Position numbers and translations under genes: made by a program. The notes beneath the pieces were generated by a model. The model had not been told where the DNA came from, made no database searches, and saw only the letters and a list, made by a program, of their open reading frames with translations. From Chryseobacterium bernardetii (GTDB lineage: Bacteria > Bacteroidota > Bacteroidia > Flavobacteriales > Weeksellaceae): 64,000 nucleotides of DNA. How positions within the stretch are numbered: the stretch's first letter is position 1; every line of letters starts with the position of its first letter. Of this stretch, positions 2-60,963 are shown in pieces. The stretch lies in assembly GCF_003815975.1 (NCBI RefSeq), contig NZ_CP033932.1, positions 2,085,001 to 2,149,000 on the forward strand. Reading direction: 5' to 3'.

Positions 2-397
2 GAAGCAGGTTTTATAGATGAAGCCGGAAAGTACTTGATTTTGTCTCAACCTGAAAATAAGGAAATGGAAAAAGCCGTTGCGCTTTACAGAAAAACATTA
101 GGCAATTCCGGAAATGCTATTTTGAAAGATATTGTTTTCAGAGGAAATAAAGCTCAGCTTAATGAATATGCCATGAATGTTTTTACTGAACTTGAAAAAG
201 ACAGCCTTAAGAAAACTAAGTATATTCCTGATTTTAAACCTAAAACCAGAGAAAAAGGAAATTACTCAGAAGGGAAAGACTCAAGAGGATTTCTAAATAA
301 AATATTCATTGTGGTACTGATTGTATTTTTAATATCGCTTCCTATTTTAGGTATTTTCAAATTTTTAGAACTGATAAACGCATTATTTTCTAACTAA
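2..397 (+). CDS. 3' end of an unrecognised C-terminally membrane-anchored protein
   Basis: The reading frame is open from the first bases of the window, so this is the last 131 codons of a longer gene that begins upstream. I do not recognise the family. The visible part is a helical, charged cytosolic-looking segment (about 85 residues), then a basic and glycine-containing linker, then one strongly hydrophobic stretch of about 25 residues (from FLNKIF to the end) that should be a C-terminal membrane anchor. It ends 10 bases before the first promoter box of the RNA array, so it is the nearest upstream neighbour of that array. Whether it belongs to the same system cannot be told from this fragment. 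Confidence 0.6.
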   Translation, partial: EAGFIDEAGKYLILSQPENKEMEKAVALYRKTLGNSGNAILKDIVFRGNKAQLNEYAMNVFTELEKDSLKKTKYIPDFKPKTREKGNYSEGKDSRGFLNKIFIVVLIVFLISLPILGIFKFLELINALFSN

Positions 398-406
398 AAA
401 AAAATA

Positions 407-445
407 AACTGCGTAAAAAGAATGCGTACTTAGCGTATAATTTTG
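407..445 (+). promoter_or_regulatory. Promoter of RNA elements 1-2, with upstream 20-bp box
   Basis: A box AACTGCGTAAAAAGAATGCG (407-426) lies 11 bp upstream of TAATTTTG (438-445), which matches the flavobacterial -7 consensus TAnnTTTG. No TTG -33 element sits at the usual distance; the box occupies that place, which suggests an activator-dependent promoter. Within the box TGCG recurs at a 13-bp interval (410 and 423). Predicted transcription starts about 450, just upstream of the first RNA helix. The same box at the same spacing recurs at 620. Confidence 0.6.
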
Positions 446-457
446 CAGTGTTAATAA

Positions 458-525
458 TACCGGTGTCGTAAGAAAGGCCTACTTCGATTCCAAACTGACA
501 GAGCCTTTCGCCAAATTACCCGGTA
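458..525 (+). ncRNA. Structured RNA element 1 (Y-RNA-like, minimal form)
   Basis: P1 pairs TACCGG (458-463) with CCGGTA (520-525). The internal loop has TGTCGTAA on the 5' strand and GCCAAATTAC on the 3' strand. P2 pairs GAAAGGC (472-478) with GCCTTTC (503-509). P2 is followed by CTACTTC, a sequence shared with elements 3-6. The apical part is only about 24 nt and contains a T-loop-like TTCGATTCC but no full tRNA-like domain. The helices and the TGYCGT loop strand are seen directly; the assignment to Y RNAs is inference. Confidence 0.6.
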
Positions 526-530
526 AAAAT

Positions 531-606
531 AACCAATGCCGTCCGTAAGAGTTTCATCGTCAACTTCCAATTGAAACTAATTACTCTTACAATATATTGC
601 TTGGTT
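531..606 (+). ncRNA. Structured RNA element 2 (Y-RNA-like, no tRNA-like domain)
   Basis: P1 pairs AACCAA (531-536) with TTGGTT (601-606). The loop strands are TGCCGTCC and AATATATTGC. P2 is eight perfect pairs, GTAAGAGT (545-552) with ACTCTTAC (583-590). A further small helix (TTCA 553-556 with TGAA 572-575) closes the apical loop. The ACTTC sequence lies inside the apical loop here rather than directly after P2. P1' runs into TTTTTA, which could end transcription. It begins five bases after element 1 and probably shares its promoter. Confidence 0.6.
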
Positions 607-619
607 TTTATAAAAAATG

Positions 620-658
620 AACTGCGTAAAAAGAATGCGCAGTAATCATATAAATTTG
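620..658 (+). promoter_or_regulatory. Second copy of the box promoter, driving the 73-codon gene and elements 3-6
   Basis: The same 20-bp box AACTGCGTAAAAAGAATGCG (620-639) is followed, again after exactly 11 bp, by TAAATTTG (651-658). Sequence between box and -7 differs from the first copy, so the conservation is confined to the functional parts. This argues for a shared regulator that co-induces both halves of the array. Predicted start is near 665. Confidence 0.6.
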
Positions 659-676
659 TAACATCAACTGATAACC

Positions 677-718
677 ATGAATAACTATAAAACAGATCTT
701 AAAGAAGCAGTGTATTGA
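677..718 (+). CDS. Possible 13-codon leader ORF
   Basis: ATG at 677 opens a 13-codon frame (MNNYKTDLKEAVY) that ends at TGA 716-718, inside the 5' arm of the hairpin that precedes the next gene. It lies between the predicted transcription start and the 73-codon gene. A leader that controls opening of that hairpin is possible, but the only support is position, and an ORF this short can occur by chance. Confidence 0.2.
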   Translation: MNNYKTDLKEAVY

Positions 719-734
719 GGTTAATACTCAATAC
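712..734 (+). promoter_or_regulatory. Hairpin abutting the start codon of the 73-codon gene
   Basis: GTATTGAG (712-719) pairs perfectly with CTCAATAC (727-734) around a 7-nt loop; the ATG follows at 737. An 8-bp stem two bases from a start codon could restrict ribosome access. No function is demonstrated. Confidence 0.4.
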
Positions 735-736
735 TC

Positions 737-958
737 ATGAAAAAAATTAAAAAATTAAAACAAACCTTCGGAACCAATGAATATGAATTGATTGATTTTC
801 CGAAGAAAATTTCCGGAGTACAGGTTTCCAGGCTCCAATATGGAAATGATTTGGGCTGTTCATATTGTTTTCCACATGGCTTAGAAGTATTGAATGCAAA
901 GGAAACTAAATTTCAGCGATGCTGGAAGAAACACAGAAAAACCCAATGGAAAAGCTAA
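737..958 (+). CDS. Small basic CxxC protein embedded in the RNA array
   Basis: This 73-residue protein is not one I can name. It has a lysine-rich N-terminus, a CSYCFPHG stretch with a CxxC pair at residues 41-44, another Cys at 62, and a strongly basic end (KKHRKTQW). A small zinc-binding or RNA-contacting protein is possible but unproven. It is transcribed from the second box promoter. Its TAA stop (956-958) overlaps the first base of the P1 helix of RNA element 3, so gene and downstream RNAs almost certainly share one transcript. The start is the ATG just after a perfect hairpin. The sequence is well-formed coding DNA rather than a shadow frame, and its position inside the array suggests a role tied to those RNAs. 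Confidence 0.65.
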   Translation: MKKIKKLKQTFGTNEYELIDFPKKISGVQVSRLQYGNDLGCSYCFPHGLEVLNAKETKFQRCWKKHRKTQWKS

Positions 959-1087
959 GCAAGTGCCGTAAAACAGAATTACTTCATGGGGTAACAGAGG
1001 TACAGGTGCAAGTCCTGTTCTGCGGAAGCAGGTAGTGTAAAGATAGCACACCGTTAATATGAGTCTGTTTTAGCTGATTGCCTTGCT
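958..1087 (+). ncRNA. Structured RNA element 3 (Y-RNA-like with permuted tRNA-like domain closed by a GGAA tetraloop)
   Basis: P1 pairs AGCAAG (958-963) with CTTGCT (1082-1087). The loop strands are TGCCGT and AGCTGATTGC. P2 pairs AAAACAGA (970-977) with TCTGTTTT (1064-1071). Inside, in permuted order, are an anticodon-stem-like pairing (TAAC 992-995 with GTTA 1053-1056), a T arm (ACAGG 1002-1006, loop TGCAAGT, CCTGT 1014-1018), an acceptor-like hairpin CTGC-GGAA-GCAG (1020-1031), and a D arm (GTGT 1035-1038 with GCAC 1046-1049). The acceptor is sealed by a GNRA-type tetraloop, so no free tRNA 3' end can form; this is tRNA mimicry rather than a tRNA. Confidence 0.65.
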
Positions 1088-1094
1088 CTTTTTT

Positions 1095-1232
1095 TCAAGT
1101 GTCGTTCAGGAATCATACTTCGAACACGTCATCCGGTTGCAGGTTCAACTCCTGTCATTCCTGTTGTAAACGGAATGTAGCTCAAATGGATAGAGCAGAT
1201 GAAATGAAAGGATTCCGTATTGGTAACCTTGA
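1095..1232 (+). ncRNA. Structured RNA element 4 (Y-RNA-like with permuted tRNA-like domain)
   Basis: P1 pairs TCAAG (1095-1099) with CTTGA (1228-1232). The loop strands are TGTCGTTCA and GTATTGGTAAC. P2 pairs GGAATC (1109-1114) with GATTCC (1211-1216). The inner domain is a good permuted tRNA: anticodon-stem-like TCATC (1129-1133) with GATGA (1198-1202), T arm GCAGG (1139-1143) with CCTGT (1151-1155) around TTCAACT, acceptor CATTCC (1156-1161) with GGAATG (1172-1177) closed by a 10-nt loop, and D stem GCTC (1180-1183) with GAGC (1193-1196). P2 sits where an anticodon loop would be. Confidence 0.65.
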
Positions 1233-1236
1233 TGAT

Positions 1237-1332
1237 AAGAGTGCCGTAGAAAAGACTTACTTCGGTTTATTTGGTTCGATTCCAGAAGATCACGAAAATG
1301 ATCTGTAAATGTCTTTTCAAACTTTGCCTCTT
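1237..1332 (+). ncRNA. Structured RNA element 5 (Y-RNA-like, replaced apical domain)
   Basis: P1 pairs AAGAG (1237-1241) with CTCTT (1328-1332). The loop strands are TGCCGTA and AAACTTTGC. P2 is eight perfect pairs, GAAAAGAC (1249-1256) with GTCTTTTC (1311-1318), followed by TTACTTC. In place of a tRNA-like domain it has a T-loop-like GGTTCGATTCC (1273-1283) and a 6-bp hairpin AGATCA (1287-1292) with TGATCT (1299-1304). Eight T residues (1331-1338) follow and overlap P1', giving the layout of an intrinsic terminator. Confidence 0.6.
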
Positions 1333-1343
1333 TTTTTTAAGCA

Positions 1344-1482
1344 AACAAGTGCCGTAAAATAGTGCTACTTCATTCATTACGACGGTGTCACGGGTTCGAA
1401 TCCCGTCTCTTCCACTGCAAAACACAGGAAGAGTAGCTCAGGTGGTTAGAGCACGACATCACTATTTGCCTGTTGCCTTGTT
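1344..1482 (+). ncRNA. Structured RNA element 6 (Y-RNA-like, most tRNA-like permuted domain)
   Basis: P1 pairs AACAAG (1344-1349) with CTTGTT (1477-1482). The loop strands are TGCCGTA and GCCTGTTGC. P2 pairs AAATAGTG (1357-1364) with CACTATTT (1460-1467). The inner domain has a textbook T arm (ACGGG 1390-1394, TTCGAAT, CCCGT 1402-1406), a 7-bp acceptor CTCTTCC (1407-1413) with GGAAGAG (1427-1433) closed by a 13-nt loop, and D stem GCTC (1436-1439) with GAGC (1449-1452). The two halves do not form a normal 5-bp anticodon stem; at most GACA (1455-1458) pairs with TGTC (1386-1389). No anticodon exists. Confidence 0.65.
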
Positions 1483-1493
1483 ATGATAAAATG

Positions 1494-1518
1494 AAGCCGA
1501 TAAACTATTTATCGGCTT
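1494..1518. terminator. Hairpin at the end of the RNA array
   Basis: AAGCCGATAAA (1494-1504) pairs with TTTATCGGCTT (1508-1518), an 11-bp stem with a 3-nt loop. It follows element 6 by 11 bases and overlaps the stop codon of the minus-strand gene, so it may end transcription from both sides. The T tract after it is weak on either strand. Confidence 0.5.
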
Positions 1519-1855
1519 TCTTCATAATCTTTTCCAGCTCCTCTTCAAACATCACTTTCCATTTTGAAAGAGTAGTTCTGCTGATTTTATATTTTTTAGA
1601 CATATAACTGGTAGAATGCCCATGCTTCTTTTGGTACTCAAGAAGTTTAAGCATCGTTTTTTTATCATAAGTCTTCAGTTTTTGATTGTTCCTCTGGCTC
1701 TCTCTTGAAGGCTTGAAAAGCCTGTCATTGAACTTCAGTATATCTTCGCTTGTATCCAGCTTGCCAAGAAGTTCTTTTATTTTAGGATCTTTTAGCTTAT
1801 CCGGATATTCCAGTTTAAGCATGTCCTGGTATATCTTTTTATAATTGGGACGCAT
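1505..1855 (-). CDS. Helix-turn-helix protein, transposase-OrfA-like
   Basis: This 116-residue protein has a charged N-terminal half and a C-terminal helix-turn-helix (about residues 65-105, with YMSKKYKISRTTLSKWK) of the kind found in IS3-type OrfA proteins and Psq-like DNA-binding domains. It lies 11 bases downstream of the other HTH gene on the same strand and is probably co-transcribed with it. No DDE catalytic partner or inverted repeats are visible nearby, so it looks like a domesticated DNA-binding protein rather than part of an intact insertion sequence. Its 3' end meets the hairpin that closes the RNA array. A role in regulating the array is possible from position only. Confidence 0.6.
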   Translation of the reverse strand: MRPNYKKIYQDMLKLEYPDKLKDPKIKELLGKLDTSEDILKFNDRLFKPSRESQRNNQKLKTYDKKTMLKLLEYQKKHGHSTSYMSKKYKISRTTLSKWKVMFEEELEKIMKKADK

Positions 1856-1866
1856 CTTTTGTTAGT

Positions 1867-2292
1867 TTATCCGTTAATATCACTTTTCTGAAGCCATCTG
1901 TGAAGGGTACTTTTAGGAATGGAGTATTCTTTAATTACTTCACTTTGGGTCATATCTCCTGAAAGAATTCTTTTCATAATGAATTCCTTAATTTCCTGGG
2001 TATAAATATTTTTTCTGAAATAAGGGATCTTGTCAGATTTCTGCTGATTTTTATTGGCTGCTGCCGGTGGAGCATATAAAATCAGGTGAGAACTGTAAAG
2101 CCGGAAGAAATCATATTCCAATAATTTACTCCATCTTAAGAGAAGATCCGCGTCTATTGATTTGCTGTTGTACATTCTTTCTATGGCGTCTTCATCTCTG
2201 TCCAGAAATTTACATATCCTCTCCATAGTTATTTCATTTTCATCAACCCTCTCCTTAATAAACTTTCCAATATGGATCTCTTTGTATAACAT
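1867..2292 (-). CDS. Two-domain helix-turn-helix protein
   Basis: A 141-residue protein with two DNA-binding-like parts. The N-terminal 70 residues resemble a Cro/Xre-like four-helix domain (ITMERICKFLDRDEDAIERM). Residues 105-138 form a transposase-like helix-turn-helix (DMTQSEVIKEYSIPKSTLHR). Proteins of this layout are common in Chryseobacterium as regulators of unknown target. It is the first gene of a two-gene minus-strand unit, and a near-perfect 18-bp palindrome lies about 70 bp upstream of its ATG. The start chosen is the ATG (minus strand) at 2290-2292. Confidence 0.6.
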   Translation of the reverse strand: MLYKEIHIGKFIKERVDENEITMERICKFLDRDEDAIERMYNSKSIDADLLLRWSKLLEYDFFRLYSSHLILYAPPAAANKNQQKSDKIPYFRKNIYTQEIKEFIMKRILSGDMTQSEVIKEYSIPKSTLHRWLQKSDING

Positions 2293-60761: not shown

Positions 60762-60844
60762 GCCTGCGTGGTGAAATTGGTAGACACGCCATCTTGAGGG
60801 GGTGGTTTCCTAAGGATGTGCTGGTTCGAGTCCAGTCGCAGGCA
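60762..60844 (+). tRNA. tRNA-Leu(GAG)
   Basis: An 83-nt class II tRNA: acceptor GCCTGCG with CGCAGGC, anticodon stem CCATC/GGTGG with loop TTGAGGG (anticodon GAG), a long variable arm, T arm CTGG/CCAG around TTCGAGT, discriminator A. No CCA is encoded. Confidence 0.95.
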
Positions 60845-60890
60845 CTGCAAAGAAAAATTTATAATTAAGGATATACTCTTAATTGTGGCC

Positions 60891-60963
60891 GACTCGGTAG
60901 CTCAGCTGGTAGAGCAATACACTTTTAATGTATGGGTCCTGGGTTCGAATCCCAGCCGGGTCA
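60891..60963 (+). tRNA. tRNA-Lys(TTT), copy 2
   Basis: Identical in sequence to copy 1 over all 73 bases, with six upstream bases (GTGGCC) also the same, so it arose by recent duplication or is kept identical by gene conversion. A terminator follows at 61019. Confidence 0.97.

Follow-up and report, generated by a model that had tools for sequence, protein, structure and literature searches.

Organisation of the locus

The window, i.e. the whole 64 kb stretch of DNA that was analysed, represents positions 2085001-2149000 (G000:C1:2085001-2149000) of a 5.3 Mb single-contig genome. It begins with the 3' part of a DUF6584/TPR-like gene (2..397, plus strand), which is followed by six Y-RNA-like units on the plus strand, here named E1 to E6. 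A palindromic site of the form TRCGYA-N7-TRCGYA (410..428), a presumed operator, and the -7-like element TAATTTTG (438..445, plus strand), which fits the Bacteroidota -7 element TAnnTTTG, precede E1 (458..525) and E2 (531..606), the latter carrying TTGGTTTTTAT at its 3' end. A second palindromic site (623..641) and a second -7-like element, TAAATTTG (651..658, plus strand), lie ahead of a gene for a small basic protein of 73 aa (737..958, plus strand) and of units E3 (958..1087), E4 (1095..1232), E5 (1237..1332) and E6 (1344..1482). An 11-bp terminator-like hairpin (1494..1518, listed on the minus strand) separates E6 from a convergent gene.

The small open reading frame (737-958) differs among its relatives as expected of a coding gene (0.17, 0.13 and 0.35 differences at the three codon positions, respectively), and 20 proteins of 60-99 aa and 68-90% identity were found for it. 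The gene occurs in 20 of 81 loci (the best 80 of 235 plus our own) and is located inside the array in 19 of these. By eye, the end of this protein, WKKHRKTQWKS, resembles the tail WKKKKKYRKA of an RtcB protein (L119:5421-6848).

The sequence-only reading of this DNA had predicted a TROVE gene upstream of the window, and such a gene was indeed found approximately 1 kb upstream, on the same strand as the array (G000:C1:2082483-2084000). In the extended locus (L003) it encodes a 505-aa protein (L003:6483-8000) and is followed by a 225-aa gene without a Pfam match, the DUF6584/TPR-like gene and the array (L003:9458-10482), while DUF6493/DUF7824/DUF7825 and SWIM genes lie upstream of it. The protein matches PF05731 with E = 1.7e-31 (110.3 bits, cut-off 23) and vWA_Ro60 only weakly (E = 0.011, 16.1 bits, below the cut-off of 27.7); its relatives in the PDB are 9l5y and 9kop (E = 2.8e-29), and its best matches among named genomes (best 80 of 235 loci) belong to Chryseobacterium.

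The six units share a common core

A descriptor was applied to both strands of the 64 kb window, comprising a helix P1 of at least 5 bp, the motif TGYCGT, a helix P2 of at least 6 bp and a 3' loop strand of 8-12 nt. The scan returned six units with scores of 8-13, together with one weak minus-strand match (score 5), and no further match scoring at least 8 in the window. The units lie at the positions proposed from the sequence alone and have P1, a TGYCGT/TTRC loop and P2 in common. As proposed, the motif ACTTC comes after P2 in five of the six units, E2 having TTCATCG at this point. Three units were said to carry permuted tRNA-like domains and these were recovered in E3 (cluster 10), E4 and E6 (both cluster 9), whereas E5 (cluster 7) displays a T arm and an acceptor-like hairpin without a D arm. 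Above P2, E1 and E2 (both cluster 3, the short hairpin class) are plain hairpins that are not tRNA-like.

Model R1 was built from 36 RNAs of other genomes, none of them from the own genome. In the 89 kb searched, it matched every unit but E4 (E = 4.8e-8 to 4.5e-4), and no match at E up to 1 was obtained outside these five. Neither ARAGORN nor Rfam called a tRNA cloverleaf gene at 451-1518. Models of tmRNA, permuted tmRNA and other Rfam families were likewise considered for the array; these gave weak matches, none of which reached gathering within the array. Folding energies (z = -2.7, -3.8, -1.2, -0.2, -2.2 and -1.2 for E1 to E6, respectively) are weak for E3, E4 and E6 when taken alone, and the minimum-energy fold of E6 lacks P2. 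Folding energy is thus a mixed witness and undecisive as proof, and the case rests on comparison with related loci.

Unit classes in related loci

The best 80 of 235 loci were fetched and, with the own locus, constitute a set of 81 in which close relatives are favoured, since only the best 80 were kept. In 79 of the 81 loci, units were observed downstream of TROVE and no more than 6.5 kb from the start of that gene, the two loci without units (L055 and L065) being cut off by contig ends. The minus strand of the 80 fetched loci yielded one match. The 79 arrays of this set hold between one and nine units and most often five, which is the number in 23 loci. Four and six units occur in 15 loci each, seven in 11, three and eight in 4 each, nine in 3, and one and two in 2 each. 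As the relatives show the same core, the finding does not depend on a single array.

In total, 425 units scored at least 8, of which three were dropped owing to very long inserts and four single outliers were left out, leaving 418. R2 also matches tRNA pairs, both in L114 and at 60820-60917 of the window, and for this reason weak partial R2 matches were not counted as units. Five large classes were distinguished in the 81-locus set, besides further, smaller ones: short hairpins (111 units in 59 loci, including E1 and E2), permuted tRNA-like units (90 in 66 loci, including E4 and E6), a T arm plus acceptor hairpin class that is not uniform (69 in 55 loci, including E5), a second permuted class (55 in 50 loci, including E3) and a tRNA-like class of unpermuted order (51 in 51 loci), which is absent from the own array. 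Two or more classes coexist in 77 of the 79 loci with units, and a permuted class is present in 77 of 79. The motif after P2 reads CTTCG or CATCG in 373 and ACTTC in 250 of the 418 units of this set. When read by eye, 11 of 15 loci from the wider class hold a unit of unpermuted order; furthermore, at L134:9423-9534 a Y core seems to enclose the body of a tRNA (D, anticodon and T arms), standing where an acceptor stem would be.

Covariation of the helices and structure of the internal loop

The sequence-only reading had claimed helix covariation within one array. Following the removal of near-duplicates, alignments comprised 36 of 51 units for class 12 (unpermuted), 50 of 90 for class 9 (permuted) and 32 of 55 for class 10 (second permuted); 60 of the 111 short hairpin units and 30 of the 69 T arm plus acceptor hairpin units (38 after duplicate removal, 8 left out) were also aligned. 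In class 12, both partners change in 24 of the 34 pairs, and 96.4% of cells are paired, against 43-58% in slid controls. The corresponding values are 21 of 31 pairs and 93.5% against 39-49% in class 9, where a single D-stem pair among the 31 is misplaced in the alignment and never forms, and 17 of 29 pairs and 92.9% against 36-52% in class 10. The covariation score was reached by none of 500 shuffles in each of these classes, and the number of pairs changed on both sides in class 10 was reached by one of 500, so that the claim of covarying helices extends to three unit classes. Pairing of P1 and P2 is partly due to selection, because these helices served to find the units; in contrast, the T, acceptor, D and inner stems were not used for this purpose. 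Both permuted classes (9 and 10) show covariation of the T and acceptor stems. The D stem is variable in class 10, where 80.6% of its cells are paired, but is nearly invariant in class 9 and consequently says little there.

The internal loop was observed with TGYCGT and TTRC strands, but it is shorter than first described, because P1 is followed by a bulged U and then by two covarying pairs, G:C and Y:R. Across the 418 units the Y:R position is 188 times C-G, 193 times T-A, 24 times T-G, once C-A and 12 times another combination; 405 units therefore have a standard pair at this position, C-G and T-A being of similar frequency. These loop frequencies arise partly by construction, since the descriptor fixed TG[CT]CG[TA] and gave a small bonus for TTGC, whereas the dependence of R on Y does not. 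The base after CG is T in all 418 units although the descriptor allowed A.

In the unpermuted class, TCGTNN after P2 and NNACGA before CCCC constitute a candidate pseudoknot. At least four Watson-Crick pairs are possible in 19 of 36 sequences, compared to 15.0 when permuted, and the mean score was reached in 2 of 2000 permutations; a test of the longest run was reached in 19 of 5000 (36 sequences) and 147 of 5000 (11 distant sequences). The pseudoknot is suggestive only, and kinship is uncorrected in these tests.

Co-occurrence of the RNA with TROVE

If the units are Y RNAs, they would be expected to accompany TROVE, as the sequence-only reading had anticipated. Among 173 genomes of the genus, TROVE was detected in 123 and an R1 match (E up to 1e-4) in 122: both were present in 119, TROVE only in 4, the RNA only in 3 and neither in 47 (Fisher p 7e-34, kinship being ignored in the statistic). 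These genus counts, obtained with strict filters and few candidates scored, are not independent, because the training loci of R1 came from this genus and from Flavobacterium. Two of the three genomes with RNA but without TROVE are incomplete (73 and 87%). Among 345 genomes of the class, TROVE occurs in 16 and an R1 match in 13, every one of which is TROVE-positive (both 13, TROVE only 3, RNA only 0, neither 329). The covariance search finds other members in genus and class, and the co-occurrence holds with few exceptions.

Nearness of the RNA to TROVE was checked in fetched loci rather than genome by genome in the 173. When the own locus is left out, 14 of 15 TROVE loci of the class match R1 and R2 at E up to 0.1, including the three missed by the strict genome search; in the exception, the R1 match lies approximately 26 kb away from TROVE.

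A palindromic site shared by TROVE, the array and rtcB

The pattern TRCGYA-N7-TRCGYA has four matches in the 5.3 Mb genome, compared to one for a control pattern. The four sites are located before TROVE, before E1, before the small open reading frame and, at 2836842, before an rtcB gene (PF01139, 121 bits), on the other side of which are a PF08888 gene and a gene for a WYL/WCX regulator. In the 81-locus set (best 80 of 235 plus own), the strict palindrome lies between 250 bp upstream and 60 bp inside TROVE in 78 loci and occurs with one mismatch in the remaining three, while a 310-bp stretch inside the TROVE gene contains it in none of the 81. It is also found within 200 bp before a unit in 61 of the 79 arrays of this set. 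With a looser pattern, 83 sources yielded 455 strand matches, compared to 15 after single-base shuffling, each site being counted on both strands and the own sites twice.

Sites were furthermore compared across 16 genomes, eight of which belong to the same genus and carry TROVE (own included). The site precedes the second rtcB in seven of these eight, being missing in G141 (coordinates read by eye), and was not found there in the two TROVE-less genus genomes compared (G018 and G034). All TROVE-positive genomes of the eight but the own (seven) have one to three further sites outside TROVE, array and rtcB, and genomes without a TROVE match also carry the palindrome (two sites in G034, one in G018 and six in G174), which indicates that the regulator probably has other targets. 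An orthologue (52% identical) of the WYL protein is encoded upstream of TROVE, on the opposite strand, in 15 of the 80 fetched loci (themselves the best 80 of 235). The titles of all 15 name Flavobacterium or Flavobacteriaceae, and in 14 of them the WYL gene lies within approximately 2 kb of TROVE. The location of the WYL gene by rtcB here and by TROVE in Flavobacterium supports, without showing, that this protein reads the palindrome; judged by its neighbourhood, it would be the likeliest controller. The Y RNA set and an RNA-repair enzyme seem to be under one genetic switch.

tRNA genes in the vicinity

Ten tRNA genes in a row are present approximately 14-16 kb upstream of TROVE (L114:4087-5996, i.e. 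G000:C1:2066087-2067996), and are followed by genes for RNase-H-like, cREC, Rnl2-type ligase, MBL-fold, exonuclease and PIF1-like helicase proteins. A tRNA-Leu (tag) of this row measures just 74 nt and lacks a long variable arm. Three or more tRNAs were detected in 16 of the 50 relatives' loci scanned (50 of the 80 fetched, themselves the best 80 of 235), and in other Bacteroidia tRNA genes lie between or directly beside Y units (L121:4479-4779, L128:7404-7855 and L130:5013-5220). Rfam families at gathering were sought in 11 of the 15 class loci.

Comparison with known systems

The array is encoded near a Ro60/TROVE gene and its units have a terminal helix with a conserved GNCG-type internal loop (TGYCGT/TTRC, with covarying helices), two features of bacterial Y RNAs. 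A further one is said to go back to Chen et al. 2014, namely that each bacterial Y RNA set reportedly includes at least one tRNA-like RNA; E3, E4 and E6 are such RNAs here. The proposed YrlA-like layout is upheld as far as the permuted T arm, acceptor and D arm above P2 are concerned, but all units remain below the RF02553 gathering score of 69 bits (41.5 bits for E4 and 35.9 bits for E6), which no unit reached in any of the 173 genus genomes; Y RNAs are thus probably under-annotated in this genus. The units share with YrlA (RF02553) the Ro60 locus, the lower helix with its GNCG-type loop and, in E3, E4 and E6, the permuted arms. They differ in that the Rfam consensus loop is ggCgaAUG while the units have GYCGT, with T instead of A after CG; in addition, several classes coexist per array, including units without a D arm, and relatives of this array add the unpermuted tRNA-like class.

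Ro60 adjoining RNA repair is already known (PMC7790460, PMC8394870). In the Salmonella rsr-yrlBA-rtcBA operon (PMC7790460), Ro60, more than one Y RNA and RtcB are jointly controlled, as the shared site suggests for the present genome; however, that system is one operon with RtcR, whereas here the loci are separate, with a palindromic site and a WYL gene near rtcB. The lower stem of vertebrate Y RNAs (PMC4726728) is a helix with a single bulged nucleotide as the Ro60 site, a role predicted here for the equivalent part; the bulge is C there and U here, and the upper parts are unrelated. Extra tRNA arrays have been described beside genes for RNase H and exonuclease (PMC10910872), and in the trn operon of Anabaena a tRNA array is controlled together with rtcB under TrcR (PMC10272220). 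Both resemble the tRNA genes found here, but the available parts of these sources mention neither Ro60 nor Y RNAs for their arrays.

Interpretation

We consider it highly probable that the six elements are Y RNAs of the TROVE protein with a constant, Ro60-held base and variable effector ends, probably under a joint, damage-induced switch. The shared architecture, the covariation, the link to TROVE and the shared site were observed by computation; from these we infer transcription, Ro60 binding, distinct partners, the inducing signal and the regulator. On sequence grounds, the units are very probably bound by Ro60.

A different view, which appears unlikely though worth weighing, is that the arrays act mainly as decoys for tRNA-cutting toxins, mimics and spare tRNAs absorbing or replacing damaged tRNA with Ro60 as a storage protein. 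The tRNA arrays, the Rnl2-type RNA ligase, the cyclic-phosphate-processing domain protein and RtcB, all in the same region or sharing the site, would suit this view, and Hughes et al. 2020 (PMC7790460) raise competitive nuclease inhibition as a possibility for YrlA. Against it, an anticodon arm is lacking from the permuted mimics, E1 and E2 do not imitate tRNA, and an anticodon nuclease did not use YrlA as a substrate in the same source. It is less probable still that the units are independent sRNAs or leader elements, syntenic with TROVE and not bound by Ro60: while Ro60 binding is deduced from sequence, and the palindromic sites and the protein gene among the units imply that the region partly serves as promoter and leader as well, the RNA accompanies TROVE across families of the class and its core resembles the basal end of YrlA. 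Lastly, an artefact of decayed tandem tRNA genes, in which the 3' half of one lies beside the 5' half of another, is very improbable for the permuted domains, despite a YrlA model that below its cut-off matches all 173 genomes (TROVE-less ones included), the R2 matches to tRNA pairs and the real tRNA arrays in or near several of these loci, since P1, loop and P2 enclose the domains and covary, the same core encloses the non-tRNA-like hairpins of E1 and E2, and no tRNA is called in the array. Such decay is nevertheless a possible evolutionary origin of the permuted class.

If the units are Y RNAs of the TROVE protein, the part held by Ro60 would consist of P1, the bulged U, the G:C and Y:R pairs that follow it and the conserved CGT/TT loop, and the domain beyond P2, be it a plain hairpin, a T arm plus acceptor hairpin or a permuted tRNA mimic, would be the effector end. 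Rsr holds the basal stem of the Y RNA while the tRNA-like end reaches PNPase (PMC8394870, PMC4726728); by the same logic, the constant base may be the Ro60 handle and the varied ends adaptors or gates. As the effector end differs between units, a single ring protein would be loaded with different RNAs, blocking or opening its surface and bringing different partners such as a PNPase-like exoribonuclease or tRNA-binding enzymes. That one Ro protein might use several RNA gates is plausible and in keeping with the mixed unit classes that the loci retain. The retention of several kinds together across the genus speaks for distinct functions rather than dosage. Ro60, the array and the RtcB ligase would be switched on together upon RNA damage, most likely tRNA damage, with the WYL protein encoded near rtcB as the putative controller; joint switching is probable because the three share a rare palindromic site, and the step from damage to palindrome is suggested by position.

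A broader proposal is advanced tentatively, namely that Ro60 loci of Bacteroidia combine a distinct Y RNA repertoire, including the unpermuted and possibly pseudoknotted class, with extra tRNAs and RNA ligases in a WYL-controlled tRNA-damage response, each Y RNA adapting one Ro60 ring to a different partner. The Y RNA direction of Ro60 has been studied mainly in Deinococcus radiodurans (PMC7790460), and none of the titles and abstract openings listed from the PMC open subset concerns Y RNA arrays of Bacteroidota. Arrays of up to nine units, recurring classes, an unpermuted class and a palindrome shared with rtcB go beyond the known picture. In such a natural set the base stays constant while the upper domains of up to nine RNAs can be exchanged, so that it can be asked which partner each domain recruits. 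The shared site ties Ro60 RNPs to RNA ligation in the absence of an operon like that of Salmonella, suggesting an inducible system.

Further features of the locus

Three additional features were noted around the array. A Flavo-1 RNA (RF01705, 63 bits) lies on the minus strand directly after TROVE (L003:8090-8172) and also occurs in L034. A glyoxalase-like gene on the minus strand (L003:5596-6161) is split over two overlapping frames in this genome. Finally, two small HTH genes are located on the minus strand directly after the array (window 1505-2292), each of which is present in 43 of the 81 loci (best 80 of 235 plus own).
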